From Bacteroidota bacterium (GTDB lineage: Bacteria; Bacteroidota; Bacteroidia; JABDFU01), in the NCBI GenBank assembly GCA_016183775.1, contig JACPDY010000005.1, positions 1 to 64,000 of the forward strand: a DNA stretch of 64,000 bases. The letters run 5' to 3'. The position numbers and the translations under genes were made by a program. The notes under the pieces were generated by a model that did not search any database, was not told the origin of the DNA, and saw only the letters and a list, made by a program, of their open reading frames with translations. Positions 5,651 to 54,488 of the stretch are shown one piece after another. How positions within the stretch are numbered: position 1 is the stretch's first letter; the number at the start of each line of letters is the position of its first letter.

Positions 5651-8600
5651 TCAAGGTGCACTAAGACTGACATTCACACTGCAACCGTTTTTGTCTTTAA
5701 TATTTATAATGTAATTGCCGGGGCAAAGTTGGTTCTTATACCTGTTAATATATCCATCCGGCCAGGTATATGAATAAGGGCTCGTTCCCCCTGTTGCATT
5801 TATGAGTATCCATTCTTTGCAACCACAGCCTGCACAGTTGGCGGTGCCTTTTGACACTTGCCCAGTTAAAGTCGGCGGTGAAATTATTCCGGCGGTAGAA
5901 GTCGCAACACAACCTTTTGAATCGGTTACTGTAACAGTATAAATTCCTGAAACCAAACCAGAAACTGTTGAACCTGAAACCCCGTTACTCCATACATATA
6001 CATAAGGTGTGCTTCCACCGCCAGGGCTTGCGGTTGCCGAGCCTGTCGAAGTACCGCTGCAGCTTATGTTGGTTGGAATTACGGTTACACTAACCATGGG
6101 ATTAACGGTTACAACAGCTACTGAAGTGGCTGTCAATCCTGCATTGTCGGTAATTGTTACGGTGTAATTGGTTGTACTGGCCGGACAGGGGTTAATACCC
6201 GCTGTTGTTGCGGCTGTACTCCACAAATAAGTATAAGGGGCTGTACCACCTGCTCCTGTTGCTGTTAAGGTGGGACAGGGAGTTACACCGCTGCATATTG
6301 ATGCTGAATTTACGTTGGCGGTAATACCTCCGCATATAGTACCTGTTATAACAAAAGTTGCCGTTTGTATTTGATTACAGCTACTGGCAACTGTTACAGT
6401 ATAGCTACCCGGACATAAACCGGAAATGGTGTTTGTTGTGTTTGTGCTGTTTAAAGTAGTGCTGCCATTACTCCAGGTGTAATTATAATTTGGTTCACTA
6501 CAGGTTAAGTTAATTGTTGCACTGCCGCTACATGGGGTGCAGGTGGTGTTATTGGCCTGTGATTTAGTAATAACAGGAACAACCGGAATAAATTTTGCAA
6601 TAAAAGCATCGTCGTCCAAACCTGCCCCCGGAAGATTTTGAAAGAACACACCTCCTCCGGGATTTATTAAAGGGAGAGTAGATATATTGTAAGTAGCGCT
6701 GCCATAGTGAGGAAACTCTCCCGCAAGAAAAATATTGGATTTATTATCGATAGCCAAAGCTCCGCGAAAATCGTTATCACCATTACCTCCAAAGTAACTA
6801 CACCATAATAGTTTACCCTGGTTAGTGAATTTAGTTATTACTATATCGTCTGAAATACTTAAGCCCGCATATGTCTGCGTCCCCTTAAAGTAGGAGCCAC
6901 AGGAAGGGTTATATACATCTATTCCGGAAGGCGGGGAATTATATGATGTACGCGTATTAAATGAAATATATACATTTCCACACAAGTCAGTTTCTATCCG
7001 GTCATAATCATTAGTTTGTGTATCCTCGTTATTGCCGCCAAAGTAGGTAGCCCACTGCCTGATACCATTCAGATCAAATTTCAATATAAAACCATCTCTT
7101 AAACCACCGATCAAATTATCAAAATAATTGCCGGAATTAAGTAATGGAAAATCAGTTGAATAAGTAATTCCGCTAATGAAAATGTTACCAAAAATATCAG
7201 AAGCGATTCCCATTCCTGACTCACCTTTGCTTCCGCCATAAAACGTTGACCACAAACGATTTCCTGCATTATCGAATTTTAGTATAAAAATATCCCCGGT
7301 TTCAATCGGAAAGAACGCAGTTGGAGCGGTTCCTCCTCCATAACTTCCATCCGAATATGCGGCACCGTTGGTTTGAATCGGAAAATCAGGTGAAGTAGTG
7401 TTACCTGTAACGTATAAGTCATTATTACTGTTGATTGTTAAAGCATTTCCTTCCTCAACAGCGCTGCCGCCATAATAAGTTGCCCATAAACGGGTGCCAA
7501 CATTATTAAACTTCAAAAGAAACGCGTCACTGGCTCCATTGAGCGTCCCATCAAAAAATGTTCCGGAGTTCTGTACAGAAATATCCGCAGAAGTCGTTTT
7601 TCCGGCAATATAAATATTATTTAAAGCATCAGATTTTATACAGCGGCCTTCGTCAACCCCGCTCCCCCCGTAATAGGTGGCCCATAAACGGCCACCGGTA
7701 TTACTGAACTTCAGTATAAAGCAATCACTTACCCCACCAATTGAATTATCAAAATAAGTGCCGGCATCAAAAACGGGAAAATTAGCGGAGTTTGTACCAC
7801 CGGTGAGATAGACGTCCTGATTGGAATCTATTCTTATGGAAACTCCAAAATCATTATTGCTTCCGCCGTAATAGGTACCCCATAGCAACACCCCATTATT
7901 GTCAAACTTAAGAATACCGGCATCGTAATTCCCTCCGTTGACGGCCTGAAAGGCTCCTGGAACAGGGATCCCGGTTGAATAAGTGTATAACGCTGCAAAC
8001 AAATTGCCTGCTGCATCAACATCCAAAGATCTTATTCCGTCCCAACCATTGCCGGCATATAATGTACACCAGGTAAGCTGAGGATCGATTACAATTGTTT
8101 CGGTGTTACTATCGAAAGAAGTAATTTTTTGCAAGCCACCCAATTGAAATGAAACCTCAACATTGTGTTTACTTATTTGTTTACTGCGGAAATGGCTTTC
8201 AATAGGAACACTGCTTGCACGGTAATAAGTATATGGAGCATTTTCGGTTAAGATGCCTAAAGGTGTTGTAACATGAATATTTCCTCCATTATCAATTGAA
8301 AGCGGCTCCTCGCTTTCATATAACATCCGAATAGCCGATGGATCGGCTCCGGGGTTTACGATGAAATCATATTTTACTCCTTTCATACCCGTAGTGTATA
8401 ATACCCAGTCAATACCCGGATACACATCTTTCACTGTTAACTTCTCATATAGCCTTACATCATAAATACCATTTGGACAATGATGGTAAAAAAAGTTGAA
8501 ATGTTCCCTGCTCTCTCCTTGTTTAACAATATTGTTCTTGTTGATTTTTGCTTTAACCAGTCGCATGTGAAACTGAGCCATTGCAAAGGTCTTATTATCC

Positions 8601-8911
8601 TCCGCAGCCATTTCTGTAACAAAATTCCCCCCATCCTTCATATCATTATTGGTCTTACTTTCATTTCCCTGTACAAATACATAGGTAAGACCCTTTTCTG
8701 TGATATATATATCCAATCCTTGTAAACTTGTTTTAAACAGAACATCAGGAACGGTATTACCATTAACATCCGTCATTTGTCCTTTGTTTTCGATGAAGGC
8801 TGGTGTTTTTTGTTTTGAAAGCAAAACGTCAGCACTGGGATGTTGAGCGTAGCAATATCCCATCAAGAGCATAAATACATTAAATATGGATATCTTTTTT
8901 GCTTTACTCAT
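5651..8911 (-). CDS. SBBP/SprB-repeat surface protein with Cys-containing conserved tail
   Basis: 1086 residues. Signal peptide 1-22 (ends GYCYA), FIENKGQM at ~39-46, SBBP beta-propeller blades from ~275 to ~770 (for example WATYYGGSGVDEGRCI, DAFLLKFNNVGTRLWATY), then SprB-like repeats (NYTWSNGS, SGLCPGSYTVTV). It ends in a tail at ~1015-1086 with CAGCGCKEWI, WPDGYINRYKNQLC and NGCSVNVSLSAP. The tail closely matches the C-terminus of the protein at 24989 and is not a recognisable type A or type B T9SS sorting domain. The gene is divergent from the solenoid gene at 9148. Its ATG overlaps the stop of a gene remnant (ATGA). Predicted extracellular; adhesion is an inference. Confidence 0.88.
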   Translation of the reverse strand: MSKAKKISIFNVFMLLMGYCYAQHPSADVLLSKQKTPAFIENKGQMTDVNGNTVPDVLFKTSLQGLDIYITEKGLTYVFVQGNESKTNNDMKDGGNFVTEMAAEDNKTFAMAQFHMRLVKAKINKNNIVKQGESREHFNFFYHHCPNGIYDVRLYEKLTVKDVYPGIDWVLYTTGMKGVKYDFIVNPGADPSAIRMLYESEEPLSIDNGGNIHVTTPLGILTENAPYTYYRASSVPIESHFRSKQISKHNVEVSFQLGGLQKITSFDSNTETIVIDPQLTWCTLYAGNGWDGIRSLDVDAAGNLFAALYTYSTGIPVPGAFQAVNGGNYDAGILKFDNNGVLLWGTYYGGSNNDFGVSIRIDSNQDVYLTGGTNSANFPVFDAGTYFDNSIGGVSDCFILKFSNTGGRLWATYYGGSGVDEGRCIKSDALNNIYIAGKTTSADISVQNSGTFFDGTLNGASDAFLLKFNNVGTRLWATYYGGSAVEEGNALTINSNNDLYVTGNTTSPDFPIQTNGAAYSDGSYGGGTAPTAFFPIETGDIFILKFDNAGNRLWSTFYGGSKGESGMGIASDIFGNIFISGITYSTDFPLLNSGNYFDNLIGGLRDGFILKFDLNGIRQWATYFGGNNEDTQTNDYDRIETDLCGNVYISFNTRTSYNSPPSGIDVYNPSCGSYFKGTQTYAGLSISDDIVITKFTNQGKLLWCSYFGGNGDNDFRGALAIDNKSNIFLAGEFPHYGSATYNISTLPLINPGGGVFFQNLPGAGLDDDAFIAKFIPVVPVITKSQANNTTCTPCSGSATINLTCSEPNYNYTWSNGSTTLNSTNTTNTISGLCPGSYTVTVASSCNQIQTATFVITGTICGGITANVNSASICSGVTPCPTLTATGAGGTAPYTYLWSTAATTAGINPCPASTTNYTVTITDNAGLTATSVAVVTVNPMVSVTVIPTNISCSGTSTGSATASPGGGSTPYVYVWSNGVSGSTVSGLVSGIYTVTVTDSKGCVATSTAGIISPPTLTGQVSKGTANCAGCGCKEWILINATGGTSPYSYTWPDGYINRYKNQLCPGNYIINIKDKNGCSVNVSLSAP

Positions 8912-9147: not shown

Positions 9148-10677
9148 ATGAAATTTAATAATTCAAAGGAAACTTTGTTTGACTTGATCAAATCGCTTAC
9201 TCCAAGTGAGAAAAAAAGCCTTACACTTTATATAAATTATTATTCAACCGGGGACAAAAAATACCTCCACCTTTTTGAAATGATTGATTCGACTCATAAT
9301 TACGATGAACGAATTATAGGTCAAAAACTGAAAGACAAAAATATATTAACTCCTTTGCCTAAAATAAAAAACTATCTATTGGCACTGATCCTGAAGGCTT
9401 TACGATTTCATTATTCCGGAAAATCAATTGAAGGAAAAATAAGGGATTATTTTGCAGATATAGAAATTTGTCACAATAAAGGATTGAAAACGTTAAGAAA
9501 TAACATAATAAAAAAAACAAAAAAGCTGACAGGGCAATTTGAAAAACAGGAAGCACGATTACAGGTACTGAATAAAGAATGGGGCTTGGGATTAAATCTG
9601 CAGAAAGACACAGCCCTGCTCATTGAACAAGAGCAAATTTCAGTACAAATAGCATCAGTCAGAACATACAAATCCCTGATCTATTCCGTTCATAAACTAT
9701 TAAAACATGGGGATATCAGGGATAAAATGATAAAAACAGAATGGATAAAAATAATAAAGCATCCATTGATGATTAGTACCAATGAGCCGACTGATTTTGA
9801 ATCAAATTATTATTATCACACAATTTATAATGTGTATTACGAAAAATTAAATGAATTTAAGAAGGGACGAGATCACCTGGAAACATTATTGAAAAACATG
9901 GAATCCCGGCCGGAACTTCTAATGGAGCATGTCGCGAAATACATGAGCGTGCTGAATAATTTTGTGGCCATATTATGTGCGAATAAAGAATTGAACAGGG
10001 CAGAGGACATTTTAAATAAATTATTGCTCATTCAAAACTGGAAATTGGGCCAGGAAGAAAAAAATATACTTACAGATAACATTACAATCGCATACAGTAA
10101 TCTTTTATTTGGATATTTATTAGTAAAGGCGTTTGACGCCGGAGAGCGCATGGCACAAGATGCAATTTTTTTTATGCAAACCCATAATGCGAGGGTGGTA
10201 TACAAAACAGCGCTGTTTGTCAATCTGTCGGGCTTATACTTATACACCGGCAATTATTATCAGGCTCGTATTTGGAATAACAATATACTAAATGAATTAC
10301 CCGGAAATTGCAGAGAAGGTGATTATGTTATTGCAAAAATATTAAACCTGATTATTCATTATGAACTTGAACAAGACGACCTTTTAACCTATATAGTTCG
10401 TTCTACATATCTTTTTTTATTGAAAAGGAAGCGATTATATAAGACAGAAGATGTGCTTCTGCGTTTTATCCGGAACAAATTACCCGGATCAAATTCACGA
10501 AAAGAACTCATTAATTTTTTTAAAGACTTAAAAATGGAACTTCAGGAGATCACCAAAGATCCTTTTGAAGCAAAGGCCCTGGAGTACTTTGATTTCATTT
10601 CCTGGCTAGATAGTAAAATACAAAATCGCCCTTTTATGGAAGTGGTGAAAGAGAAAGCGAGACTGTCCGCAAAATAA
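9148..10677 (+). CDS. Solenoid (TPR-like) protein, LIKSL-EKR / FDFISWL family, copy 2
   Basis: 509 residues, no signal peptide. Family landmarks are LFDLIKSLTPSEKKSLTLY (~10-28), KYLHLFEMIDSTHNYDE (~38-54), YLFLLKRKRLYKTEDVLLRF near residue 430 and YFDFISWLDSKIQNRPF (~480-496). The region between the conserved ends is the most divergent of the four copies. It is transcribed away from the giant gene at 5651-8911, with 236 bases between starts, part of which is the remnant of another giant gene. The ccm genes follow 47 bases downstream on the same strand, but nothing links the functions. No enzyme motif was found; function unknown. Confidence 0.85.
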   Translation: MKFNNSKETLFDLIKSLTPSEKKSLTLYINYYSTGDKKYLHLFEMIDSTHNYDERIIGQKLKDKNILTPLPKIKNYLLALILKALRFHYSGKSIEGKIRDYFADIEICHNKGLKTLRNNIIKKTKKLTGQFEKQEARLQVLNKEWGLGLNLQKDTALLIEQEQISVQIASVRTYKSLIYSVHKLLKHGDIRDKMIKTEWIKIIKHPLMISTNEPTDFESNYYYHTIYNVYYEKLNEFKKGRDHLETLLKNMESRPELLMEHVAKYMSVLNNFVAILCANKELNRAEDILNKLLLIQNWKLGQEEKNILTDNITIAYSNLLFGYLLVKAFDAGERMAQDAIFFMQTHNARVVYKTALFVNLSGLYLYTGNYYQARIWNNNILNELPGNCREGDYVIAKILNLIIHYELEQDDLLTYIVRSTYLFLLKRKRLYKTEDVLLRFIRNKLPGSNSRKELINFFKDLKMELQEITKDPFEAKALEYFDFISWLDSKIQNRPFMEVVKEKARLSAK

Positions 10678-23223: not shown

Positions 23224-24786
23224 CTATCTTTCTAACTCTTTCCTCTTAGCGATTTCAACAAAAGGTTTATTCCCGATTTTACTATCAAGCCAGGAAATAT
23301 AATCAAAATACACCGCTGATTTTGCTTCTTCTTTGTCTTTCAGTACTTTTTGCATTTTAACTTTTGTTTCAGAAAAAAGTGATACCAGGTGAGTATTCGT
23401 TTTTGCTTTATGTATTTTCTTTTCAAACAACTCTAACCATACTTCTTCATGTTTATTAATATAGCCCCTTTTTTTATGCAAATAGCGCCGGATTGATTTA
23501 GATTGACTTATCAATAAATCCTCTCGGCCGAGTTCATAATAGACTATAAGGAATATTATTCTGACACTGTGGATCAGATCCTGTTTTATCCAACTATTAT
23601 CATAACTCAACAGCTTATTAAGATGTTTCAGGGCCAGACGAAAGTCAGACAAATAGAAATTTATTAAAACAGCATAGTAATGAAAAAGTATTTGAGTAGA
23701 GGTATCGGGAAGTGTAATATTTTTCATACTTCTTTCAGTGTCACCAGCAATGGCTAAAGCGCGCTCATAATTATGCATTCGGATATAATGCTTCACAGAT
23801 AGAATATTATGCGATAGATATTGAATCAACACCTGATTTGTTTTGTATTTACTATTCAATTCATCCATGAATTTATTCACCTTTTTAAGACAGGCCTCAA
23901 ACTCATCGAACTTTTTCAGCTTATCAATTATGATAAGTAAATTATGAACAGATCTTAAATAATCAAGTACCCGATTGGGCATTTTTAATTTATCCGATTC
24001 GATGAATTCAACATATTTCTTTCGAAACAAATACGAATTTTCCAGATCTCCTGAGATACGGGTAGCGGCGGTAATAATAAGATAATAGGATTTAATCGAT
24101 TCATAGGAGAAATTCTCTGTTCGGAAATTTTGAATAAGGGGGTGAGCAACTACTCTTTTAAACTTACTCTTTAATTCATTGTCATTTTCATTTTTCATCT
24201 TTAACAAAGGCCAGACCCGATGCATTAGCTGTTTATACTCCAATTCATCTTTATATGTGTTCAGACAATTAAAAATTTCTGAAAGCCCCTGTTCTGCACC
24301 GACTTTCAATTTATTCACTTCTTCAGACAAAACGACAAGTTCCCATTCCCGCATCATAAACAACATAACGTATATGGTCTTTTCATGTTCAATCGCCATC
24401 TTTAAAAACCGTTTAACTATTTTCAAGGCCATCGTATGTAGCCCTTTTCCTATAAGAATTTCCGTTTGCTGTAATTTTTGAGCCAGTATTATTTCGATAG
24501 AATCGGTGGAATGATACTTTCCCAAACTCTTTAATATAGCCTCTGAAACATAACTTTTAAATACTTTGAGATGTTTTTTAAGGGTGTTGTCCTTTAGATT
24601 TGCCTTTAACTTCTTTTCATCATATATTTTTAACCGATCGATCGCATTGAATAAAATAATATATTTTTTATCAGGGGATTTGTCAGAATTTTCCGAATGA
24701 ATAGTTGAAAAAACCTTGAAATATCGCTTTTCAACAGGAGTAAGTGACTTAATAAGAATGAATAAATCGTCCGATGGGGTCTTCAT
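23224..24786 (-). CDS. Solenoid (TPR-like) protein, LIKSL-EKR / FDFISWL family, copy 3
   Basis: 520 residues without a signal peptide. Landmarks: LFILIKSLTPVEKRYFKVF (~8-26), KKYIILFNAIDRLKIYDEKK (~40-59), AILKSLGKYHSTDSIE, SIRRYLHKKRGYINKHEE near residue 442, and YFDYISWLDSKIGNKPF (~495-511). The N-terminal block is very close to copy 4 (EKRYFKV). It is divergent from the giant SBBP gene at 24989, with ~200-280 bases between starts depending on the true start of the giant. Its function is unknown; the same pairing occurs at the other three copies. Confidence 0.85.
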   Translation of the reverse strand: MKTPSDDLFILIKSLTPVEKRYFKVFSTIHSENSDKSPDKKYIILFNAIDRLKIYDEKKLKANLKDNTLKKHLKVFKSYVSEAILKSLGKYHSTDSIEIILAQKLQQTEILIGKGLHTMALKIVKRFLKMAIEHEKTIYVMLFMMREWELVVLSEEVNKLKVGAEQGLSEIFNCLNTYKDELEYKQLMHRVWPLLKMKNENDNELKSKFKRVVAHPLIQNFRTENFSYESIKSYYLIITAATRISGDLENSYLFRKKYVEFIESDKLKMPNRVLDYLRSVHNLLIIIDKLKKFDEFEACLKKVNKFMDELNSKYKTNQVLIQYLSHNILSVKHYIRMHNYERALAIAGDTERSMKNITLPDTSTQILFHYYAVLINFYLSDFRLALKHLNKLLSYDNSWIKQDLIHSVRIIFLIVYYELGREDLLISQSKSIRRYLHKKRGYINKHEEVWLELFEKKIHKAKTNTHLVSLFSETKVKMQKVLKDKEEAKSAVYFDYISWLDSKIGNKPFVEIAKRKELER

Positions 24787-25069: not shown

Positions 25070-28000
25070 ATGAACGAACATAAGAAGAAATTGCTGCCTG
25101 TGCTTTTTGTATTCACAGGAATTTTTACATATGCCGGCAATGACAATATCTCTTCCTTTCAAAAAACACAGATGGCTGCTTCTATTCACAGCCAGTCAAT
25201 TCAGTTTACGGAGAACAACGGACAAATGGCAGACATGTCAGATAATCCCATACCACAGGTATTGTTCAAGGTCGAAGTTCCCAAGTTAAATATCTGGTTA
25301 ACCACACAAGGGCTAACCTATCAATTTTTAAAAATTGTGGAAAATGAAGAGGAATTGGAAAAATTAAATACAGGTTCCAACTCTGTTTCCGGAATTTTTG
25401 ATCAAAATTCAAAAATCGAAAAATCCGAATGGCACAGGGTTGATATGATCCTCAAGAATGCCGCTATTAAAAAGGAAAACGTGTTCACAGAAGGTAACGT
25501 AACACAAGGCAAGCACGACTATTTCCTTGGACATTGCCCTGAAGGTATTCTTGATGTAAAATCCTATTCAAAAGTTATAATTAAAGAAGTTTATAATGGC
25601 ATTGATTGGATTTTATATGCGTCCTCAGGAGGAGGCTTGAAATATGATTTTTTTGTACATCCCAACGCTGACCCCAATCAAATAAAACTGATTTATGAGG
25701 GAAGCGGAAAACTAAACGTTGGTACTGATCAAATACACTTTGGTAATGAATTAGGTGAAGTAATCGAGGGAACGCTATTGTGTTATCAGAATAGCGCTTC
25801 ACCCGACATAGAGCATACTGCAATTGAAAGGATAGTGATTGAGTCTGAATACAAAGCGAAAAAAACAATCAATAAAATCAGCAACGGTTTTTCTTATGAA
25901 GTTGCAATTGCTTTAAGGGAGTATGATGTAAATGACACTCTCATTATAGACCCTCAACTATATTGGGGAACGTACTATGGCGGAAATAACCTTGACTCTT
26001 TTCAGGATTGTGATGTTGATGCTCAGGGAAATGTTTTCGTTGTTGGCTATACAGCCTCAACTAATTTTCCTACTGTAGTTTTAGGTGGTGCATATAATCA
26101 GACCTTTTCTCCCGACATGTCTGCGAATATTTATAAATTTTCAAACAATGGTCAGTTGTTATGGGTTACCTGCTATGGACCGGTTGATACTGATATTGGT
26201 GTTTCCCGCAACGTAACTGTTGATATTTTTGGAAATATTTTTGTTGTAGGAGAATTTGGTTCCTATGGAAAAGCAACAAGTTTTCCTTTATTTAATTCGG
26301 GGACATATTTTGAAGCTCCTTCCGGAGTTAGTGACGATTGCACATTTATATTGAAATTTGACAACAATGGAAACCGGCTTTGGGCTACTGGTTTTGCATG
26401 TGGAAATTCGGAAGGAAGGGGGATTGTAACAGATCTATCCGGTAATGTTTTTGTAACAGGAACAACTTGGGGTATAATTCCATTACTTAATCCCGGAGGG
26501 GGAGCATATTACCAGAATACAGTGGGTGGTAATGTAGACGGATACTTTGCTAAATTCACCAACAACGGGACACTACTTTGGTGTACCTATTTTGGAGGAG
26601 ATAATCAGGATGTTCCAAATGAGTTATGTAGAGATAATATTGGAAATATATTTGTGGTAGGAAGTACCAGATCCGCATCTGCTTTTCCGTTATTTAATCC
26701 ATCCAATGGATCTTATTTTGATAATACGCTGGGAGTTTTTGAAAGTTCATTTGTGGCAAAGTTTTCTTCTGTTAACACTAATCTATTGTGGTCAACTTAT
26801 TTCGGTGGTAATAGTTCGGGAGATATATTATATGAAGTGACTTGTGATAACAACAATGCTGTTTATATTGCCGGCTATGTAAGAAGCACAAATCTTCCCG
26901 TAATAAACCCGGGCAATGGTGCATACATTGACAATATGCTTGGTGGTGCCAGTGATGCATACATTGCGAAGTTTAGTCCGGGTGTTCATTCTCTTTTTTG
27001 GAGTACTTACTACGGTAGCACAGGTAATGAGAATTATTTCGCTGTATACGAACGAATGGCGCTTACAACAGATAATTGCGATAATGTTTATATAGGCGGA
27101 CTTACCTATGGCACAAATGATTTTCCAATTTACAATCCCAATTGCAATAATTACTTTGTTGGGCACAATACGGCCGCTGGCGATGGGTTTATTGTAAAAT
27201 TTAATTCAGAAGGTGTAAGGCTTTGGAGCACCCTTTTTGCCGGTGGAACAGATAACTTAAATCATTTTTCGTTCTGCCAATCTATGGTAACAGATAATCA
27301 AAACAATTTATTCGCGGTTGGAGAATGGAAATACGGAGTAGTACTCAATGGGTTAGCAAATCCGGGCGGAGGCGCTTATTATGACAATACATTTAATGGG
27401 GGTGATGATGCCTGTATATTAAAATTTACTCCGGAAGAGCCAGCCATAACTTCCTCATCAACAAGCAACACTTCAGGTTGCTCATGCAATGGCACAGCCA
27501 CTATTACAATCAACTGCGGAAACTCTTCATATAACTACACCTGGAGTAATGGCAGCCGAACCCTTAACTCAGTTAGTGCTTCAAATACTATTAGTGGCTT
27601 ATGTCCGGGAACTTATTCCGTTACTGTTATAGCATGTGATACTTTAACAGCTTCAGTTGTAATAAACGGAAGCACAGGGGGGCTAATTGCTTCAGTTAAT
27701 CAATTTGATGCTACATGTAATGGAGGAAATGATGGTTATGCTACAATAACAGCTTCAGGAGGAAGTCCACCGTATAATTACGTCTGGAACAATGGCCAAA
27801 CCGGGATAACAGCTACCGGGCTATCAGCAGGTTCCTATTCATGCACAATAACTGATGCAAGTGCTTGTACTTCAATACGATTTGTAAATATTAGCCAGCC
27901 TACCCCAATTGCAATGTCCTATTTAACTAAATGGTCATGTGTAACAAACTCCGCAAATGTAACGGCCCTTGTTAGCAATGGCACTTCGCCATATATTTAT

Positions 28001-29278
28001 TTATGGAGTAATGCTCAAAACACTCAAACGGCAACAAATCTTGTCCAAGGAAATTACACTATTACTGTGACAGACTCAATAGGTTGCCTTAAAACAGGTA
28101 CGATTAATATCACTCAACCATTACCTTTAAATTTAACTACCAGTTCCAATAATACCTCCTGTGGAGGTAACAGCATCAGTGTATCCGTAACAGGCGGGAG
28201 CTTCCCTTATTTATATGCATGGAGCAATACTTCTCAAATTACCTCTACCATTCAATCGGTTTCTGCCGGAACTTATACAGTAACTGTTACAGATGCCAGC
28301 GGTTGTACAAAAACTTCAACTGCTAGTGTTGGAGCCTCTCCTGGTACAATTGCTACATTTGAAGTATTTCCGAATGATACAGTTTGCCTTGGTTCTTTGG
28401 TTAATTTTATAAATACCGGCACAATGCCGGGAGTGGGAATTACATATACCTGGACAATTGCACCTGTAAACGTAAGTGGAACAACTACTGATTTTTCATA
28501 TCTCTTTTCATCTGCGGGAACCTATTCTATTACTCACACGGTAGCCAAAGGAGGGTGCCCCTCCAACTCTACAAGAAAGGTTACGGCAATTAACTGTTCC
28601 GGACCTGTTGTTACAACTACAGCTAATTCAATTTGTCCGTCATCCTGTGCAACTGTTACTTCAAGCGTTGCCGGTGGAACCAGTCCATATACTTACAACT
28701 GGAGCAATGGCGCCACAATACAAAACATTAATCCATGTCCTGTTTCAACAACTACTTATACCGTAACAATTAAAGATACCGGGGGAAATACTTCTACCTC
28801 AATTGCAACTATAACCGTTAATCCTGCTGTTATTGTAACTATCCAGCCAACCAATATCACCTGCAGTGGGGTTGCAAATGGAACTGCAATTGCAAATCCA
28901 GGCAATGGAACTCCGGCATATACCTTTAACTGGAGTGGAGGAGTTCCGGGTTCCGGGTTCCAGGTTTCGGGTTTATCTGCCGGAACCTATACTGTTACTG
29001 TAACAGACAGCAAGGGTTGTACTGCCAGTTCTAGTGCTACCATTTTTTCCCCTCCTCCTTTAAGTGGCCGGTTTTCCATGGGAACATCGGATTGTGCGGC
29101 TTGCGGTTGCAAGGAATGGATAATGATTACCGCCAGCGGCGGAACAAGCCCCTACTCCTACTCCTGGCCCGATGGATATATAAACCGGTATAAAAATCAG
29201 CTCTGTCCGGGCACATACACCATAAATATTAAAGACAATAACGGTTGCAGTATAAATGTTAATTTGAGTGCGCCCTGA
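25070..29278 (+). CDS. SBBP/SprB-repeat surface protein with Cys-containing conserved tail
   Basis: The frame is open from an ATG at 24989. I prefer the ATG at 25070 (or 25052) because MNEHKKKLLPVLFVFTGIFT then forms a normal signal peptide; this gives about 1402 residues. An ENNGQM motif (Lys to Asn variant) and GLTYQFLK are followed by SBBP blades (WGTYYGGNNLDSFQ, LLWSTYFGGNSSGD), then SprB-like repeats (YTWSNGSRTLNS, SAGTYTVTVTDASGC). The last ~70 residues (CAACGCKEWIMI, WPDGYINRYKNQLC, NNGCSINVNLSAP) match the protein at 5651. No type A/B sorting domain is visible. It is divergent from solenoid copy 3 and ends at a strong hairpin. Confidence 0.86.
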   Translation: MNEHKKKLLPVLFVFTGIFTYAGNDNISSFQKTQMAASIHSQSIQFTENNGQMADMSDNPIPQVLFKVEVPKLNIWLTTQGLTYQFLKIVENEEELEKLNTGSNSVSGIFDQNSKIEKSEWHRVDMILKNAAIKKENVFTEGNVTQGKHDYFLGHCPEGILDVKSYSKVIIKEVYNGIDWILYASSGGGLKYDFFVHPNADPNQIKLIYEGSGKLNVGTDQIHFGNELGEVIEGTLLCYQNSASPDIEHTAIERIVIESEYKAKKTINKISNGFSYEVAIALREYDVNDTLIIDPQLYWGTYYGGNNLDSFQDCDVDAQGNVFVVGYTASTNFPTVVLGGAYNQTFSPDMSANIYKFSNNGQLLWVTCYGPVDTDIGVSRNVTVDIFGNIFVVGEFGSYGKATSFPLFNSGTYFEAPSGVSDDCTFILKFDNNGNRLWATGFACGNSEGRGIVTDLSGNVFVTGTTWGIIPLLNPGGGAYYQNTVGGNVDGYFAKFTNNGTLLWCTYFGGDNQDVPNELCRDNIGNIFVVGSTRSASAFPLFNPSNGSYFDNTLGVFESSFVAKFSSVNTNLLWSTYFGGNSSGDILYEVTCDNNNAVYIAGYVRSTNLPVINPGNGAYIDNMLGGASDAYIAKFSPGVHSLFWSTYYGSTGNENYFAVYERMALTTDNCDNVYIGGLTYGTNDFPIYNPNCNNYFVGHNTAAGDGFIVKFNSEGVRLWSTLFAGGTDNLNHFSFCQSMVTDNQNNLFAVGEWKYGVVLNGLANPGGGAYYDNTFNGGDDACILKFTPEEPAITSSSTSNTSGCSCNGTATITINCGNSSYNYTWSNGSRTLNSVSASNTISGLCPGTYSVTVIACDTLTASVVINGSTGGLIASVNQFDATCNGGNDGYATITASGGSPPYNYVWNNGQTGITATGLSAGSYSCTITDASACTSIRFVNISQPTPIAMSYLTKWSCVTNSANVTALVSNGTSPYIYLWSNAQNTQTATNLVQGNYTITVTDSIGCLKTGTINITQPLPLNLTTSSNNTSCGGNSISVSVTGGSFPYLYAWSNTSQITSTIQSVSAGTYTVTVTDASGCTKTSTASVGASPGTIATFEVFPNDTVCLGSLVNFINTGTMPGVGITYTWTIAPVNVSGTTTDFSYLFSSAGTYSITHTVAKGGCPSNSTRKVTAINCSGPVVTTTANSICPSSCATVTSSVAGGTSPYTYNWSNGATIQNINPCPVSTTTYTVTIKDTGGNTSTSIATITVNPAVIVTIQPTNITCSGVANGTAIANPGNGTPAYTFNWSGGVPGSGFQVSGLSAGTYTVTVTDSKGCTASSSATIFSPPPLSGRFSMGTSDCAACGCKEWIMITASGGTSPYSYSWPDGYINRYKNQLCPGTYTINIKDNNGCSINVNLSAP

Positions 29279-37734: not shown

Positions 37735-40700
37735 ATGCAAAAACAAAAGCTGATAAAACACCTGAAAAAAAACTGCCTTGTTTTCATACTGCTTATTTCA
37801 GTTTGCCACATTTTCGCTGCCAGATCAACCGACTCCGGCTTGCTCAAAGAAGCAAAACAACGGATAAAAAATAATGGGATCAGGTTCCGGGAAAACAAGG
37901 GACAGCTGTCTGATATGAATGGGAAACCTGTTCCTTTTGTCCTGTTCAGCGCGAAGACCCCCGGAGTTAATGTTTATGTCACCGAATCAGGGTTAACTTA
38001 TCAAACAATTAAAAAAACAACAGAAGAAAACAGCCCAAAAGAAAACAGTTCCGATCGAATAAATCCTTCCCGTGAACAAACCAATTCAAAAACAGAATGG
38101 GAACGTTTTGATGTAGAATTAAAGGGAGCAAAGATCAGGTCCGAAAATATGATCAGGGAAGGACAAAGTGAAGCGGATCTCAATTTTTTCTATCCGAATT
38201 GCCCTCATGGAGTTTATGGTGTAAAGGAGTATGACAAGATCACCATAAAAGACATTTATCCCGGAATTGATTGGGTATTATACAACTCAACTGAAACCGG
38301 ATTTAAGTATGATTTTGTTGTGCATCCCGGTGCAGACTGCGATCAGATAGCGCTGGTTTATATAACAAAACATCTGTTACAAATAAACAGCAACGGACAG
38401 ATCGAGGTACAGACCGCTTATGGTGAAATAATTGAGAATGCCCCGGTAAGTTATCAACGTAACCGAAATATCGGATCAGCTTTTAAGATTACCGGTCGGT
38501 CTGAGATAAGAAAAAAAGGTGATAATGGTTATGCAACTCAAATAAGCATTGGTCTCAACAAAAATCAAATAGATCCCAAAGAAGAACTTATCATTGATCC
38601 ACAACTGGCGTGGTCTACATTATATGGCGGGGACGATACCGATTTCGGAATGTCGATCGACACCGATCAGAATGGAAATGTATTTATTGCGGGAATGATA
38701 GAATCTAATTTACCGGGTACCTTCCCCTTATACAATTCAGGAAGTTCTTTCTTCCAGGGATCTCATTCAGGAGGAGTTCATGATCTGTTTATTTTAAAAT
38801 TTACAAACACCGGCGCTCTTGCATGGGCCACCTATTATGGTGGTTCTGAACAGGACGAAACGGCATTTATTACAACCGATAATTTCAATAATATTTTTAT
38901 TACCGGCTATACCTATTCCCCTGATTTCCCGGTTCAATCCTCCGCGGGAGCTTATAATCAGCCTGTCAACTCCAATTCACCGGCATCCGCGGATGGTTTT
39001 ATTCTGAAGTTCAATAACTCCGGAACAAGATTATGGGCTACCTTTTACGGGGGAAGCGGTTTTGACTGGACATCGGGAATCGCAGTGAATAATTCGGGTG
39101 ACATTTACATCACCGGTTATACTACTTCCAATAATTTCCCAACCTTCAACCCGCTGAACGGAAGCTATTTCCAGGGAGCCCCCGTTAATACCGGATATTT
39201 ATTTATACTAAAATTTACCAGTAGCGGTGTGCGATCATGGGCAACCTGCTATGGTGGAACTTCATATAATACAGGAGCTTCGATAACCTGTGACAATAGC
39301 GGAAATATTTATGTAACAGGTCGCTCACCGGGTTTTCCGGTAATAAACAACACTTCAAATCCGTCTATCTATTCACAAGCCCCCGGCGGAGGCATGGATG
39401 CATTTATTTTGAAATTCAATTCAGGTGGAAACCTGATGTGGGCTACAAATTACGGCGGCAGCGACGATGAATGGGGCCTTACCATCAAAGCGGATAATTC
39501 AGGGAATGTATTTGTTTGCGGCGAAACCAAATCAGCGGATTTTCCGGTGAAGAACGCGGGAACATTTTACCAGGGCAATAATGCCGGAGGGTACGACGCC
39601 TTTATTTTAAAATTTGACAACAATGGCAATCTCGTATGGGCCAGTTATTTTGGAGGAAACGCGGATGAATCCTGGAGTCTTTTCGGAATATATGACAACC
39701 TTGAAATTGATAATTGCGGGAATGTTTACATGAGCATGATATCGGGATCTTCAAACCTTGTTTTACAGAATAATATATCCGGCTCGTACTTTGACAAATC
39801 ATTTAATGGAAATTTTGACGTTGTTCTACTTATGTTCAGCAACACGGGAAATTTATTGTGGTCTACATTCTGGGGCGGAGCCAATCATGATCTGTGGAGA
39901 GGGGTTGCTTTGGACAACAACGACAATCTTTACATTACGGGCTCCTTTAATCCCTTCAATGTAAGTTCCGCAAGCTACCCTTTGCTTAATCCCGGCGGTA
40001 CTTATTACTTCGATGGCAATTTTGGATCAACTATTTTCAATAGCGAAGATATTTATTTAGCTAAATTCTCAAAATGTGCCCCTCAATATCAGCAATCACA
40101 AACAGACCCCATTTCATGCCAGGTTTGTAACGGGACCGCAAGTGTAACTGTTAATTGTGGCATACCTGATTTTACCTATAAGTGGAGCGATGGTACAATA
40201 CAAAATAATGTAACCACAAATGTAAGTAGTATCAATAATTTGTGCCCGGGCAATTATTGGGTAGAAATCAAAAGCAATTGCTTAATTCAAGATACTGTCT
40301 TTTTTTCAATGTCAGGATTCACACCCGGATTTACCACTACTGCAATTGTAAATAATGCACCAAAATGTAACGGGCAAACAGGCTCAGTAACAGCTTCAAT
40401 TACGGGAAACAGCGGACCTTATACTTATAGCTGGAGTACGGGATCAACAGGAAGCACTTCCTCAACTACAATTATATTAAACAATGTACCGGCAAACAAC
40501 TATGCAATAACTGTAACGGATGCTAATGGATGCAATTTAACAGCAACCGCCGCAATTACAGAACCAACAATGGTTACAGCCACTATTACATCGACAAACA
40601 ATTTATGTGCCGCCTCAGCAAATGCTTCAGTAAATGTATCTGCCGGCGGAGGAACACCCGGATATACATACGCCTGGAGCAACGGCGCAAACACACCAAC

Positions 40701-42030
40701 ATCCGGCAATCTCTTTGCAGGAAATTATATCGTAACAATAACAGACAATAATGGATGTTTCACAACCTCCGGCACTATCTTATCTGACCCGGCTCCTATA
40801 ACTTCCCCCTTACTTACAACAATGAACACTACTTGTGAATTAAACAACGGCAGTATAACTGCGAATGCCTCCGGTGGAACTGGTTTGCTTACCTATTCAT
40901 GGAACACGGGAGCTGCGGGGCAAACTATTTTAAATTTATCTGCAGCCATTTATACTGTTACCATTGTTGATGCCAATTCGTGTACAAGAACTACAACAGT
41001 TGGTTTAACCAATAGCGGAAGTGCTCCTTTGATTACAATGACCTCTTCGGATATACTTTGTAACGGAAGTAATACCGGCTCTATTTCCGTTACATTAGTT
41101 AATGGAAACATACCGTATACCTATAGTTGGAGTAACGGATCAAGTGCAATAACCGGTTCAACGAGTCAACAACTTAGCAATCTGATCGCTGGCAGTTATT
41201 CAACAACGATTACCGACGCGAACGGCTGCAGTTCAATAAGTTCAGTAGCACTTACCCAACCCGCCCCTTTAGCTTTAAATCCTGTGTCTCAAAACATAAC
41301 CTGTGCTAACAGCAACGGGAATGTTACACTATCAATAGCCGGTGGTATACCACCCTATGCATTCAACTGGAGCACGGGACAAACAGGGATCACTGGCGGA
41401 ACCTCAATGGTTTTACCGAACCTCCAGGTTGGAAATTATTCTGTAACAATAACAGATGGAAATGGCTGCGTGAAAACTACATCAGCGGCAATTAATACCA
41501 CCAGTCCGGGAACTATTGATCTTGTTCCTGTGCAGCAAACCATTTCAGAAGGCGGACGAGTCACCTTCAAAGTAAACGGCGGAATAGCATACTCCTGGGC
41601 ACCCGCTGCAGGCTTGTCCTGTACAGATTGTAATAACCCTGAAGCCGCACCAAATATTACCACCACATATACTGTAACAGCAGTCGATGTGAATGGATGT
41701 ACTATAACGGCTATGATTACCATAAACGTCAAGCCTCCCTGCATTGATGATGACGCCTCTGTATTTATTGCAAACATATTCTCTCCCAACAATGACGGAA
41801 AAAACGATATACTTTACATAGAAGGAAACGGGCTAACAAATATTTATTGGGGCATTTATGACCGCTGGGGTAACCTCCTGTTTGAAACCATAGACCAGTC
41901 GCATGGCTGGGATGGAACAAAAAACGGACACCCAATGGAAAATGGCACTTATGTATATTACCTCAAGGGCATCTGTGCCAGAACAAACAGTAAAGTGGAT
42001 CTGAAAGGAAATATAACCATTGTAAAATAA
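37735..42030 (+). CDS. Giant SBBP/SprB-repeat adhesin-like protein with T9SS type B sorting domain
   Basis: 1431 residues. Signal anchor region LVFILLISVCHIFAA at ~15-29. FRENKGQLSDMNGKPVPFVL (~51-70) is the N-terminal ENKGQ domain. About seven SBBP blades follow (WATYYGGSEQDETAFI, LWATFYGGSGFDWTSG, FILKFNNSGTRLW), then six or more SprB-like repeats (YTYSWSTGS, NYAITVTDANGC). The type B sorting domain is at ~1345-1431 (IFSPNNDGKNDILYIEGNGL, IYDRWGNLLFE, GWDGTKNG, GTYVYYLKG). Export by T9SS and surface display are predicted by family. Its C-terminal ~400 residues are nearly duplicated in the next gene. Confidence 0.92.
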   Translation: MQKQKLIKHLKKNCLVFILLISVCHIFAARSTDSGLLKEAKQRIKNNGIRFRENKGQLSDMNGKPVPFVLFSAKTPGVNVYVTESGLTYQTIKKTTEENSPKENSSDRINPSREQTNSKTEWERFDVELKGAKIRSENMIREGQSEADLNFFYPNCPHGVYGVKEYDKITIKDIYPGIDWVLYNSTETGFKYDFVVHPGADCDQIALVYITKHLLQINSNGQIEVQTAYGEIIENAPVSYQRNRNIGSAFKITGRSEIRKKGDNGYATQISIGLNKNQIDPKEELIIDPQLAWSTLYGGDDTDFGMSIDTDQNGNVFIAGMIESNLPGTFPLYNSGSSFFQGSHSGGVHDLFILKFTNTGALAWATYYGGSEQDETAFITTDNFNNIFITGYTYSPDFPVQSSAGAYNQPVNSNSPASADGFILKFNNSGTRLWATFYGGSGFDWTSGIAVNNSGDIYITGYTTSNNFPTFNPLNGSYFQGAPVNTGYLFILKFTSSGVRSWATCYGGTSYNTGASITCDNSGNIYVTGRSPGFPVINNTSNPSIYSQAPGGGMDAFILKFNSGGNLMWATNYGGSDDEWGLTIKADNSGNVFVCGETKSADFPVKNAGTFYQGNNAGGYDAFILKFDNNGNLVWASYFGGNADESWSLFGIYDNLEIDNCGNVYMSMISGSSNLVLQNNISGSYFDKSFNGNFDVVLLMFSNTGNLLWSTFWGGANHDLWRGVALDNNDNLYITGSFNPFNVSSASYPLLNPGGTYYFDGNFGSTIFNSEDIYLAKFSKCAPQYQQSQTDPISCQVCNGTASVTVNCGIPDFTYKWSDGTIQNNVTTNVSSINNLCPGNYWVEIKSNCLIQDTVFFSMSGFTPGFTTTAIVNNAPKCNGQTGSVTASITGNSGPYTYSWSTGSTGSTSSTTIILNNVPANNYAITVTDANGCNLTATAAITEPTMVTATITSTNNLCAASANASVNVSAGGGTPGYTYAWSNGANTPTSGNLFAGNYIVTITDNNGCFTTSGTILSDPAPITSPLLTTMNTTCELNNGSITANASGGTGLLTYSWNTGAAGQTILNLSAAIYTVTIVDANSCTRTTTVGLTNSGSAPLITMTSSDILCNGSNTGSISVTLVNGNIPYTYSWSNGSSAITGSTSQQLSNLIAGSYSTTITDANGCSSISSVALTQPAPLALNPVSQNITCANSNGNVTLSIAGGIPPYAFNWSTGQTGITGGTSMVLPNLQVGNYSVTITDGNGCVKTTSAAINTTSPGTIDLVPVQQTISEGGRVTFKVNGGIAYSWAPAAGLSCTDCNNPEAAPNITTTYTVTAVDVNGCTITAMITINVKPPCIDDDASVFIANIFSPNNDGKNDILYIEGNGLTNIYWGIYDRWGNLLFETIDQSHGWDGTKNGHPMENGTYVYYLKGICARTNSKVDLKGNITIVK

Positions 42031-42048
42031 AACAACGATGACAGAATA

Positions 42049-45000
42049 ATGAAAAAGCTTTTGGGTTCAATCTTTTTTTTAATTTATACCCTGAACAGTC
42101 TGTTTGCCGATTGCGGTGAAGAAAATCATATTCCATCTGAAAAAGGGAAATCACAGGTCACCGGCAGCCTTCGTGGCAGTGGTATGTGTTTTACTCCCAA
42201 CAAGGGACAGATCGCGGATATGAATGGCAAGGCCTGCCCGGATGTATTATACAAAGGGAACGGCGCAGGAGCGGATATTTATTTACGTAAAACAGGGATC
42301 AGCTATGTCTACAGTAACCTGAATGAGGTTATACATGAAGTTGAAGAAGATATCGAAGACCTTATCAAAGCCGGTAAACTTAACGAAACGGATGAAGAAA
42401 AAAAGAAGAATGAGTTACTGCTAAAAGAAAGTGTTAAAGTACACCGTGTAGATATGGATTTCTACAGCGCTAATACGAATATACACACCACAGAACAAGA
42501 GGAGGTTGACGGTTATGTCAACTACTACTATTCATATTGTCCGCAGGAAATAACCAATGTACATCAATACAATAAAGTAACATACAAAAATATTTACGAC
42601 AACATTGACGTAGTTTATTATGGAGATAAAAAGACCGGGGTAAAATACGACATCATTGTTCAACCTCATGCAGACCCAAACCAGATAAAGCTTTACTGGA
42701 AAGGCGCTGAAAGCATTCACCTTAATCGCGAAGGGAATCTGGTGATCAAAACAAGTATAAACGAATTCACCGAATCAATACCCAGAGTATATCAGGTAAT
42801 AAATGGAAAGATTATAGATGTAAAAACAAAATATGTTTTAACTCCGGTTACAGAGAGTGAAGCGATCGTTACTTTTTCATTCTCAACTTACAATTCCTCA
42901 TTTCCATTAATTATCGACCCCTGGGCTACCTATTACGGAGGAAACCATATAGATTATGGTGAGGGCATCACCACAGATAATACCGGCAACGTGCTTGTTA
43001 CCGGCGCTACATATTCGTCTGACTTTCCTGTATTATCCGGTTTCCAAATGGTGATCGGGACCGGCAATCCTGATGCCTTTGTTGTTAAGTTAGACCAGGC
43101 CGGGACACGTATGTGGGCAACGTATTACGGAGGAAGCGCATACGATCGGGGCACCGGGATCAGCTGCGATAATGCCGGAAATATAGCTATTGCCGGACGC
43201 ACCTCGTCACCCGATTTCCCTACAGGCAGCACAACACCTAATTCAGTGTTTCAGTCAATCTACAGTGGCGGAACTGTTTCTGATGCCTTCATTGTGAAGC
43301 TAAATTCAGCCGGAACAAGGCTCTGGGGCACTTACTACGGAGGCACAGGACTGGACAGGGCTGAAGGCGTCGCTATTGACAATTCAAACAATATTCTTAT
43401 CACCGGGTACACAACCGGAAACGATTTCCCGGTCTTTGCCGGATTTCAGATGATAAAATCGGGAACCAACGATGCCTTTGTTGTGAAATTCGATCCGGCG
43501 GGTACGCGACTGTGGGCCACCTTTTATGGCGGGAGCAGTTCAGATTACAGTGCCGCAATTGCAACCGACAATTCGGACAACCTGATCATAACAGGACGCA
43601 CAGCCTCGGTCGATCTGCCTGTACTTGGAGGATTTCAGATGGTCAAAGCGACAGCTAATGATGCTTTTGTCGTAAAATTCAATCCGACAGGAACGCGCCT
43701 CTGGGCCACCTTTTATGGTGGAAACAATGCGGATGTTGGCAATGGAATAACAACTGATAATGCCGACAACATACTATTTACAGGATACACCGGCTCAACC
43801 AATTTCCCCGTTTTGAGCGGATCACAAATGAGCTACCAGGGAGGTACCGCTGATGCCTATGTGGTGAAGCTCAACCCGGCTGGAACACGCCTGTGGGCTA
43901 CCTTTTATGGAGGAACTGATTACGAAACCGGCTGGCGTATAACTACTGATGTCAACAATAATGTTTTCCTGTTAATGGAAGAAGAAGATGTAGCTCAGTC
44001 TACCATGATAGCTGACGCCTGCAGCTATCAGACCTTATTTGGAGGCGTAGAAGATCAGCTGATCGTAAAATTTACTCCGACAGGACAGAAAGTATGCGCA
44101 ACTTTTATAGGCGGTACAGGAGAAGATGATGTGGATGATGGCGGAGGAATTATTATTTATGGAAAATCACTTTATATCACGGGGTCGACAGACGGCGGAT
44201 ATCCTGTAACAGCCGGAGCCTTCCAAACTGTTCTATCCGATGATCCCGACGCCTTCATCACTTCTTTATGCATAAATATTTGTGAAAGCAAAACACTTGA
44301 CCTGAACTTCAGCACCAATGTTGCAAACCCATGTACAAACGAATCAATCACCTTTACACCTGCCGTCAATAACTCTTGCGATACCACTGATTACGAATAC
44401 AAATGGACCTTTATTGGTGGTACTCCGGCTACTTCCACTTCGAAATTTCCAATTGTTACTTATTCAGGTACCGGCACCTACCCTGTTAAACTGGTCATTA
44501 CCACATCATGTAACAAAGATTCAGTTACAAAATCAACAGCGATAATAATAGTTCCCTGCGGCGTTATGGCGCTCGCAACAGGTGCAACAACATGTCGGGG
44601 ACAGTGCGCTGCAATAACCTCTGTTGGTAATAATGGCAGTCCTCCATACACCTATAGCTGGAGCAGCGGTGCTGCTTCACAAAATATAACGGAGTGCCCT
44701 GCATCAACTACCACCTACACTTTAACAATTACTGATTCCGGAGGAGCTACTGCCACTTCAACCGCAGTGATAATAATAAATTCCGCCTTCACAGTAACTG
44801 CAAGTTCAACTGATATTAAATGCTATGCGGGCATGAATGGAAATATTCTTGCAAACGCCGGCAACGGTACATTACCATATACCTATAGCTGGAGCAATGG
44901 ACAAACAACCCAAACCGCCACAGGCCTGACACAAGGCAATTATAGCGTTACAATAACTGACAATAAAGGTTGCTCAACAAGCACAACTGCAATTTTATCC

Positions 45001-46245
45001 GACCCCGCCCCTATTGATTCGCTGACATTTATGACAAAAAACACAACCTGCGGATTAAACAATGGCAGTATAACAGTCAATGCATCGGGTGGGACAGGTT
45101 TGCTTACTTATTCCTGGAACACGGGTGTTGTCGGACAAACTGTTTTAAATTTATCCGCAGCTGTTTATACAATCACCGTTGCTGATGCCAATTCGTGTAC
45201 AAGAACATCAACAGTTGGTTTAACAAACAGCGGCAGCGCTCCTTTAATCACAATGACACCTGCGGATTTGCTTTGTAATGGAAGCAACACGGGTTCAATT
45301 TCTGTTACATTAAGCAGCGGAACTATGCCATTTACTTACAACTGGAGCAACGGCTCCATTGCAATAACCGGCTCAACATCTCAACAACTCAGCAATTTAA
45401 TTGCGGGAATTTATTCAACAACGGTGACTGATGCGAACGGATGCAGTTCAATAAGCTCGGCAGTACTTACCCAGCCCGCCTCGCTTGAATTGAGTCTCGT
45501 TTCACAAAACATTACATGTGCAAACAGCAGCGGCAGTATTACCTTATCAGCTGCGGGCGGCATGCCTTCCTATGCGTTTAACTGGAGCACGGGCCAAACC
45601 GGTATCATTGGAGGAACCGCTATAATATTAACAAACCTTGCTGCCGGAAATTATTCGGTAACACTAACAGACGGGTATGGCTGCATGAAAACTGCATCAG
45701 CAGCAATTAATACTACCGGTCCTGGAACTATTGATATTGTTCCTATTGAACAAAACATTTCAGAAGGCGGGCGGGTAGTTCTTAAGGTAAGCGGCGGCAT
45801 CTCTTATTCCTGGTCGCCGGCTAACGGACTATCGTGTACAAATTGTGATAATCCTGAAGCCAATCCCGCAAAAACAACTACATACACTGTAACAGCTACA
45901 GACATTAATGGATGTGTTATTGAAGCCATGATCACAATAACCGTACTCCCCCCTTGCACTAATGACGAGGACGCCGTATTTATTGCAAATATATTCTCAC
46001 CTAATAATGATGGAAAGAACGATATACTTTATATAGAAGGAAACGGATTGACAAATATTTATTGGGCTATATATGACCGTTGGGGTAACCTCCTGTTTGA
46101 AACCATTGATCAATCACGTGGCTGGGATGGGACCAAAAATGGCATGCCTGTGGAAAATGGAGTATATGTATATTACCTGAAAGGCATTTGCAGGAGAACA
46201 AACAGTGATGTGAATCTTAAAGGGAACGTGAGCATTGTAAAATAA
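42049..46245 (+). CDS. Giant SBBP/PKD/SprB protein with T9SS type B sorting domain
   Basis: 1398 residues starting 18 bases after the previous stop, so probably co-transcribed. Signal peptide MKKLLGSIFFLIYTLNSLFA. FTPNKGQIADMNGKACPDVL is a variant ENKGQ motif. SBBP blades are very regular (TRLWATFYGGSSSDYSAAIA, DAFVVKFNPTGTRLWATFYG). One PKD domain (EYKWTFIGGTPATSTS, YPVKLVITT) lies at ~760-840, then four or five SprB-like repeats and a type B tail nearly identical to that of 37735. The SprB-to-tail portion matches its upstream neighbour closely, which points to tandem duplication or gene conversion. Confidence 0.92.
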   Translation: MKKLLGSIFFLIYTLNSLFADCGEENHIPSEKGKSQVTGSLRGSGMCFTPNKGQIADMNGKACPDVLYKGNGAGADIYLRKTGISYVYSNLNEVIHEVEEDIEDLIKAGKLNETDEEKKKNELLLKESVKVHRVDMDFYSANTNIHTTEQEEVDGYVNYYYSYCPQEITNVHQYNKVTYKNIYDNIDVVYYGDKKTGVKYDIIVQPHADPNQIKLYWKGAESIHLNREGNLVIKTSINEFTESIPRVYQVINGKIIDVKTKYVLTPVTESEAIVTFSFSTYNSSFPLIIDPWATYYGGNHIDYGEGITTDNTGNVLVTGATYSSDFPVLSGFQMVIGTGNPDAFVVKLDQAGTRMWATYYGGSAYDRGTGISCDNAGNIAIAGRTSSPDFPTGSTTPNSVFQSIYSGGTVSDAFIVKLNSAGTRLWGTYYGGTGLDRAEGVAIDNSNNILITGYTTGNDFPVFAGFQMIKSGTNDAFVVKFDPAGTRLWATFYGGSSSDYSAAIATDNSDNLIITGRTASVDLPVLGGFQMVKATANDAFVVKFNPTGTRLWATFYGGNNADVGNGITTDNADNILFTGYTGSTNFPVLSGSQMSYQGGTADAYVVKLNPAGTRLWATFYGGTDYETGWRITTDVNNNVFLLMEEEDVAQSTMIADACSYQTLFGGVEDQLIVKFTPTGQKVCATFIGGTGEDDVDDGGGIIIYGKSLYITGSTDGGYPVTAGAFQTVLSDDPDAFITSLCINICESKTLDLNFSTNVANPCTNESITFTPAVNNSCDTTDYEYKWTFIGGTPATSTSKFPIVTYSGTGTYPVKLVITTSCNKDSVTKSTAIIIVPCGVMALATGATTCRGQCAAITSVGNNGSPPYTYSWSSGAASQNITECPASTTTYTLTITDSGGATATSTAVIIINSAFTVTASSTDIKCYAGMNGNILANAGNGTLPYTYSWSNGQTTQTATGLTQGNYSVTITDNKGCSTSTTAILSDPAPIDSLTFMTKNTTCGLNNGSITVNASGGTGLLTYSWNTGVVGQTVLNLSAAVYTITVADANSCTRTSTVGLTNSGSAPLITMTPADLLCNGSNTGSISVTLSSGTMPFTYNWSNGSIAITGSTSQQLSNLIAGIYSTTVTDANGCSSISSAVLTQPASLELSLVSQNITCANSSGSITLSAAGGMPSYAFNWSTGQTGIIGGTAIILTNLAAGNYSVTLTDGYGCMKTASAAINTTGPGTIDIVPIEQNISEGGRVVLKVSGGISYSWSPANGLSCTNCDNPEANPAKTTTYTVTATDINGCVIEAMITITVLPPCTNDEDAVFIANIFSPNNDGKNDILYIEGNGLTNIYWAIYDRWGNLLFETIDQSRGWDGTKNGMPVENGVYVYYLKGICRRTNSDVNLKGNVSIVK

Positions 46246-46571: not shown

Positions 46572-46618
46572 ATAAATGATACTTGCCGCATTTTTACCAC
46601 AACAAATACCGAGAGAAA

Positions 46619-48598: not shown

Positions 48599-48626
48599 CC
48601 ATAAACTAGCGCATATTGGCGTATTC

Positions 48627-48643
48627 CCTGTCTGCCCGACAGG
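48627..48643. terminator. Small hairpin after the LamG gene
   Basis: CCTGTC (48627-48632) pairs with GACAGG (48638-48643) over a 5-base loop, between the LamG gene and the next giant gene. There is no clear U-tract. It also resembles a common dispersed palindrome. Confidence 0.35.
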
Positions 48644-48705
48644 CGATCCGAATAAATAAAAATATTTTAAAAGAAATTATCTATCAATACTCACATCACA
48701 ATACC

Positions 48706-53429: not shown

Positions 53430-54488
53430 ATGAAACGATCCGGATCCAAATGCCGCCAATTGATGAAAGCAGTTGCATGCCTTATGACAAGTACTTTTGT
53501 ACAATTTTCTGCAAATGCACAGGATATACATTTTTCCCAGTTCGATGAAACACCTTTGCAATTGAATCCGGCAAATACCGGAGTGCACCATGATATCCGT
53601 ATCATTACGAACTATAAAAATCAATGGCAGTCTATTAACTCTCCTTACAAAACATTCGCCCTTTCGGGCGACCTAAAACTATTAAAAGGTAAGGCGCATC
53701 AGTTAGGGTTAGGCCTGGATTTCTTTAACGATAAAGCCGGTGAAGCAAATCTGACCTCTAACCAGGCAAACATATCATTATCAGCAATCATTAATATTAA
53801 CTCTAAAAGTCTGCTATCAGCCGGTTTGATGGGAGGTTTTGCGCAACGAAGCCTATCAGCCAGTAACCTCATATGGGGAAATCAATACAATGGTATGACT
53901 TATGACGCGGGGATCTCATCCGGAGAATCAGGAAAGGTAAACGATTTTAAATATGTCGACCTTGGCGCCGGTATACAATATAGCTATGGAACTGACCAAT
54001 CATATATTTCCGGGAACAATTCAAGAAAAGTAAATATAGGCGCTTCCGTATTTCACCCCCATAAACCTTCCTATTCATTTTATGACGATAGTCCCCAACG
54101 ATTGAACATGAAAATTATATTGCATGGGGACGCGGCAATTGGTATTGCAAACTCAAACCTGATTCTAAAACCCTCTTATATCGTGTTCATGCAAGGACCA
54201 TTAAAAGAAATAACACCGGGAATGATGTTTCAATATATTATCCAGGAAGGATCAAAATATACAGGTTTCAAATTGCCTTCCGCATTTTCACTTGGTGGTT
54301 ATTACCGGATGAAAGACGCATTTATCGCTATCGCACGGTTTGAATATGCGAATTATTCGATCGGGTTCAGTTATGATATCAACTTATCGGATCTCAGAAC
54401 AGTCACACACACACGCGGCGGCATGGAATTGTCTCTCCGATATATTTCTCCTGATGCATTCGGCAAAACTACAAGAGCACAGTTTTAA
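53430..54488 (+). CDS. PorP/SprF-family T9SS membrane protein
   Basis: 352 residues. Signal peptide ends FSANA, then QDIHFSQFDETPLQLNPANT (~31-50), the signature start of the PorP/SprF family, and YKNQWQSI. The rest is a beta-barrel pattern (GLGLDFFNDKAGEANL, KVNIGASVFHPHKPSY, FALGGYYR-like strands). In Flavobacterium SprF is required for secretion or anchoring of the SprB adhesin, and sprF-like genes sit next to their cargo. Here it closes the type B cargo island, so it is a likely anchor partner for one or more of these giants. Confidence 0.9.
   Translation: MKRSGSKCRQLMKAVACLMTSTFVQFSANAQDIHFSQFDETPLQLNPANTGVHHDIRIITNYKNQWQSINSPYKTFALSGDLKLLKGKAHQLGLGLDFFNDKAGEANLTSNQANISLSAIININSKSLLSAGLMGGFAQRSLSASNLIWGNQYNGMTYDAGISSGESGKVNDFKYVDLGAGIQYSYGTDQSYISGNNSRKVNIGASVFHPHKPSYSFYDDSPQRLNMKIILHGDAAIGIANSNLILKPSYIVFMQGPLKEITPGMMFQYIIQEGSKYTGFKLPSAFSLGGYYRMKDAFIAIARFEYANYSIGFSYDINLSDLRTVTHTRGGMELSLRYISPDAFGKTTRAQF

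Follow-up and report, generated by a model that had tools for sequence, protein, structure and literature searches.

The DNA analyzed here, which we refer to as the window, is a stretch of 64,000 nt from a Bacteroidota genome in which several giant genes are encoded. The giant at 25070–29278 on the forward strand is made up of a signal peptide, a DUF7948 domain (PF25778), an SBBP propeller, SprB repeats, and a terminal domain of 76 aa, hereafter the tail (29048–29278, + strand, stop codon at 29276–29278), whose five cysteine codons start at 29093, 29102, 29108, 29204, and 29246. A second giant on the reverse strand (5651–8911) has the same domain order and also ends in a tail of 76 aa (5651–5881, − strand), with the stop directly after it. 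A preliminary description of this DNA had proposed that these two giants end almost identically and lack the type A and type B sorting domains of T9SS substrates. Both proposals hold: the tails share 78% identity as protein and 74% as DNA, each is followed directly by a stop, and neither protein reaches the type A or type B cut-off. A third DUF7948 giant (2–3868, − strand) is truncated by the contig end ahead of its C-terminus, so that tail or type B domain is unreadable.

The window also contains a PorP-linked island whose giants had all been described as ending in type B C-terminal domains (CTDs). We find the same, with PF13585 at the end of the DUF7948 giants at 37735–42030, 42049–46245, and 48616–53412 (all + strand) and of the giant starting at 46583; a PorP gene at about 53472–54443 adjoins the giant at 48616. 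Three further genes (4027–5550, +; 9148–10677, +; 23224–24786, −) encode all-helical, TPR-like solenoid proteins of about 510 aa that have no obvious signal peptide and belong to no Pfam family. AlphaFold2 models the solenoid with a pLDDT of 88, and among PDB folds it comes closest to the TPR domains of LGN and MalT. There are about 89 solenoid matches in the source genome, and a divergent solenoid gene, at a median distance of 186 bp, is found at 49 of 109 full tail giants versus 1 of 10 type B giants (p = 0.04). With an association at 49 of 109 tail giants, and with solenoids also sitting beside type B giants in a sister species (G001), we rejected the solenoid as an obligatory partner of the tail.

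The two tails in the window belong to a family some 70 times larger than the pair first noticed. The source genome (G000; 4.54 Mb, 164 contigs) holds about 146 tail copies with 58–100% identity, a number that rules out a chance origin. Reading the frames on 77 fetched stretches, we examined 147 matches and found that 140 finish exactly at a stop, while in six the end is damaged or extended and the sole internal match is an ordinary SprB repeat with 36% identity. Together, the tail-bearing open frames sum to 433 kb, or 9.5% of the assembly. The preliminary description had also suggested looking for signal peptides: by a simple hydrophobicity rule, 101 of 116 tail carriers have an N-terminal Sec signal peptide, and the rest are mostly proteins with doubtful starts or incomplete ones. 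The type A sorting domains of the same genome number at least 150 and those of type B about 50, which together with the 146 tails amounts to an exceptionally rich complement of surface and secreted proteins.

The tail is an Ig-like domain derived from the SprB repeat. The Pfam model of that repeat (PF13573) weakly matches seven of nine tails, with a best E of 8e-6 that falls under the curated cut-off (21.6 bits for the window tail against a cut-off of 28), and hhalign relates the tail to the internal SprB repeats of the same proteins with 99.5% probability. Fold modeling, proposed in the preliminary description, yields a six-stranded Ig-like sandwich (AlphaFold2, mean pLDDT 92.9), the fold of SprB repeats, and comes closest to the structures predicted for SprB repeats in phage proteins; Foldseek against the PDB returned generic Ig, PKD, and intimin domains, none at an E of 0.001 or better. 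While homologous to SprB repeats, the tail departs from them in several respects. Exactly five cysteines are present in all 138 intact tails of the source genome and in all nine distant tails, in the pattern CxxCxC (or CxCxC)…LC…DxxGC, whereas the internal SprB units that we found by pattern search mostly have two. The CxxCxC cluster, a (R)YKNQLC motif, a score below the curated cut-off, and an always terminal position set the tail apart as well.

The tail is also better conserved than the repeats that precede it, as the preliminary description had stated. In a registered comparison within the same 85 proteins, median amino acid identity is 74% for the tail and 50% for the last internal repeat. 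Across 120 copies from the source genome, pN is 0.157 in the tail, compared with 0.456 in DUF7948 and 0.40–0.58 in the three preceding segments of 76 residues, which are fixed windows in only rough register. The median synonymous difference (pS) is near saturation throughout, at 0.73 in the tail and 0.73–0.76 elsewhere. The tail is under purifying selection.

We built an HMM of the tail and counted matches of at least 78 bits in other genomes as strong. All 12 strong matches, three of which had gone into the HMM, are terminal, versus 2 of 1377 weaker SprB matches, and no high-scoring internal copy was found in the genomes searched. In a wider search of 395 genomes of the class with a broader model, in which the best loci were read, matches of at least 78 bits end 0–4 residues before a stop and those scoring about 70 bits or lower lie inside their proteins. 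The terminal form was found in the genus of the window (G000, G002, and G003), in six genomes of one other family (f23), and in one genome of another (f24), where its carriers are lamin-tail-like proteins and SprB-array proteins; several of the genomes compared are incomplete MAGs. Within f23 (L209, L210, L211, and L214; genomes G070, G137, G167, and G195), two kinds of protein carry the terminal form. One is a long SprB-array protein of about 1190 aa with a tail that finishes in forms such as ITN; the other is a lamin-tail-like protein that measures about 430 aa and has LP at the end of its tail. Every one of the ten carrier genomes has SprA, so that no carrier lacks this T9SS component; co-occurrence was scored in carriers, with SprA-negative genomes sampled unsystematically, and as evidence it is weak, since a T9SS is probably encoded by most of the relatives sampled. 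Neither outcome that the preliminary description had named as refuting, a tail mainly inside proteins or in genomes without T9SS, was observed.

Tails are not confined to one type of protein. In at least eight carriers the N-terminal part is not DUF7948 (domains named by eye); these include a Kelch-PKD protein and a propeller-PKD protein (C2:53472) in which the tail directly follows the PKD domain without an SprB array, and some carriers have merely one or two SprB repeats. On the DUF7948 family itself, the tail and type B domains take each other's place. Of 140 DUF7948 matches in the source genome, 104 are in frames with a tail, 10 are in frames with a type B domain, and none is in a frame with both; the other 26 mostly run off contig ends or lie in broken genes, several with a tail in the next piece. 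Six such genes are split into a pair of frames, of which the second carries the tail (C7, C118, C19, C56, C27, and C26; L307–L312). Apart from an (AT)6 run in C26, most of these junctions have no simple repeats, so assembly error or pseudogenization is likelier than phase variation, which we set aside. In two sister species that lack the tail (G001 and G004), the complete giants on our DUF7948 tree comprise 27 with type B and one with type A. This maximum-likelihood tree of 131 DUF7948 domains, whose bootstrap is not fully settled, requires 13 changes between tail and type B, at least nine of which are forced by well-supported branches. Two island giants of the window illustrate the exchange: the one at 37735 is nested among tail proteins, and the sister of the one at 42049 is the tail protein C135:4801, a swap of the C-terminus. 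Thus, the tail is strictly terminal, modular, and mutually exclusive with type B, and it has been exchanged with type B many times on the same family.

Three types of T9SS CTD, A, B, and C, have been described (PMC10202324). The tail resembles each of them in some way and belongs to none, as NCBIfam models of the three types do not match any of nine tails and hhalign gives a probability of 0.8% for a relation to the local type B domains. Like the tail, type B CTDs (TIGR04131/PF13585, both unmatched by the tail) are terminal on DUF7948 passengers, but they differ from the tail, with its five cysteines and about 76 residues, in being about 95 residues long and in often being encoded beside a PorP/SprF-family gene. 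Such a gene is no more than 5 kb away from 11 of 47 type B domains but from 0 of 146 tails. Type A CTDs (TIGR04183/PF18962) are terminal, of similar length, and fold as an Ig-like sandwich (PMC10202324), as is predicted for the tail. Known type A motifs were not found in the tail, however, and the weak whole-protein type A match in P0001 (1294–1316) lies before the tail and below cut-off. The type C CTD of ChiA is, like the tail, terminal and distinct from types A and B; NF033708, which we take to be the type C model, is absent from the NCBIfam matches of the nine tails up to an E of 10. In the open-access literature that we searched, we found no earlier report of a fourth CTD class or of this tail.

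Taken together, these observations suggest that the tail is probably a CTD derived from an SprB repeat and acting as a fourth class of T9SS sorting or anchoring domain. Sequence, phylogeny, and architecture support the proposal of a new export or anchoring signal: the tail is terminal, modular, exclusive of type B yet exchanged with it, and subject to purifying selection, and all the genomes in which we found it are SprA-positive. Counting against a sorting domain are its homology to SprB repeats, which are passenger domains, and to no known CTD; the possibility that the tail travels by recombination among SprB arrays and has no signal role; and the 385 of 395 genomes of the class that have no terminal form. 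On a rival reading, the tail would be a structural cap or ligand-binding last repeat of an adhesin stalk whose export depends on another part of the protein. SprB ancestry and fold, and the SprB arrays immediately before the tail in most carriers, are in line with such a cap, but we consider it rather unlikely given the carriers with one or two repeats or, in C2:53472, no array at all. Moreover, the tail alternates with type B on the same passengers, and a cap would leave the tail proteins without any other recognizable signal.

It is less likely again that the tail serves surface attachment only, for instance through a disulfide to a neighbor or the matrix, with export encoded in an unrecognized feature elsewhere. 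Five fixed cysteines, an odd number, would suit such a role, and disulfide anchoring has been published for SprF and PorG (PMC12635249). Yet tail proteins with differing N-terminal parts have no other conserved part in common, and the CTDs of known T9SS substrates hold secretion and targeting information together, as in Flavobacterium johnsoniae (PMC12618676). That the tail is a label for a different secretion system, not T9SS, seems very improbable: the link to T9SS consists of co-occurrence and exchange with type B, but SprA is present in every carrier genome and the exchange partners are T9SS CTDs. Finally, the preliminary description had offered a terminal SprB-like repeat held by gene conversion, of which the SprB ancestry stands; an origin of the conservation in gene conversion, or in 3' ends that were recently duplicated, with no selection acting on the tail, has next to no probability, for although the paralogues are many and often clustered on contigs, synonymous sites are as saturated in the tail as in the rest of the genes while its amino acids are held, and 0.01% of pairs have a pS below 0.3.

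How might a CTD of this kind work? On our best reading, the tail stands in for type B CTDs with no PorP/SprF gene beside it, and we infer that its carriers are secreted. Tail proteins would reach the periplasm by Sec, the folded tail would then be recognized by the T9SS, and the passenger would exit through SprA. Type B substrates of F. johnsoniae use PorP/SprF shuttles (PMC12618676). The absence of PorP/SprF genes near tails argues against such a protein as the linked partner, and no other carrier gene was found. We suggest that the tail would keep its passenger at the surface through a carrier that is not a neighboring PorP/SprF protein. More tentatively, an odd number of cysteines, invariant and including a CxC, may mean that one thiol remains unpaired and can form a disulfide with this carrier. 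A mixed disulfide is conceivable by analogy with the CxC of SprF, which forms a disulfide with GldK (PMC12635249). SprF and PorG, like the tail, have an invariant CxC in an outer-membrane-associated context, but there the motif sits on the periplasmic tail of the carrier and here on the last domain of the substrate, so the likeness is analogy only. In the full scenario, a fourth, Cys-rich CTD class arose from an SprB stalk repeat, took the place of type B again and again within a large family of adhesins, and anchors its substrates by an intermolecular disulfide with a carrier rather than by a cognate PorP/SprF barrel; we hold this to be possible, with the odds against it.

With three T9SS CTD classes named so far, a fourth that is homologous to a passenger repeat would show how a sorting signal can arise. 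If this is true, annotation could pick out about 146 proteins of this genome that at present seem to have no signal. The sister species provide a natural domain-swap series, with tail versus type B on the same passengers, for finding what a CTD must encode. For the organism itself, having about a tenth of the genome length in the tail family points to a very large surface repertoire.
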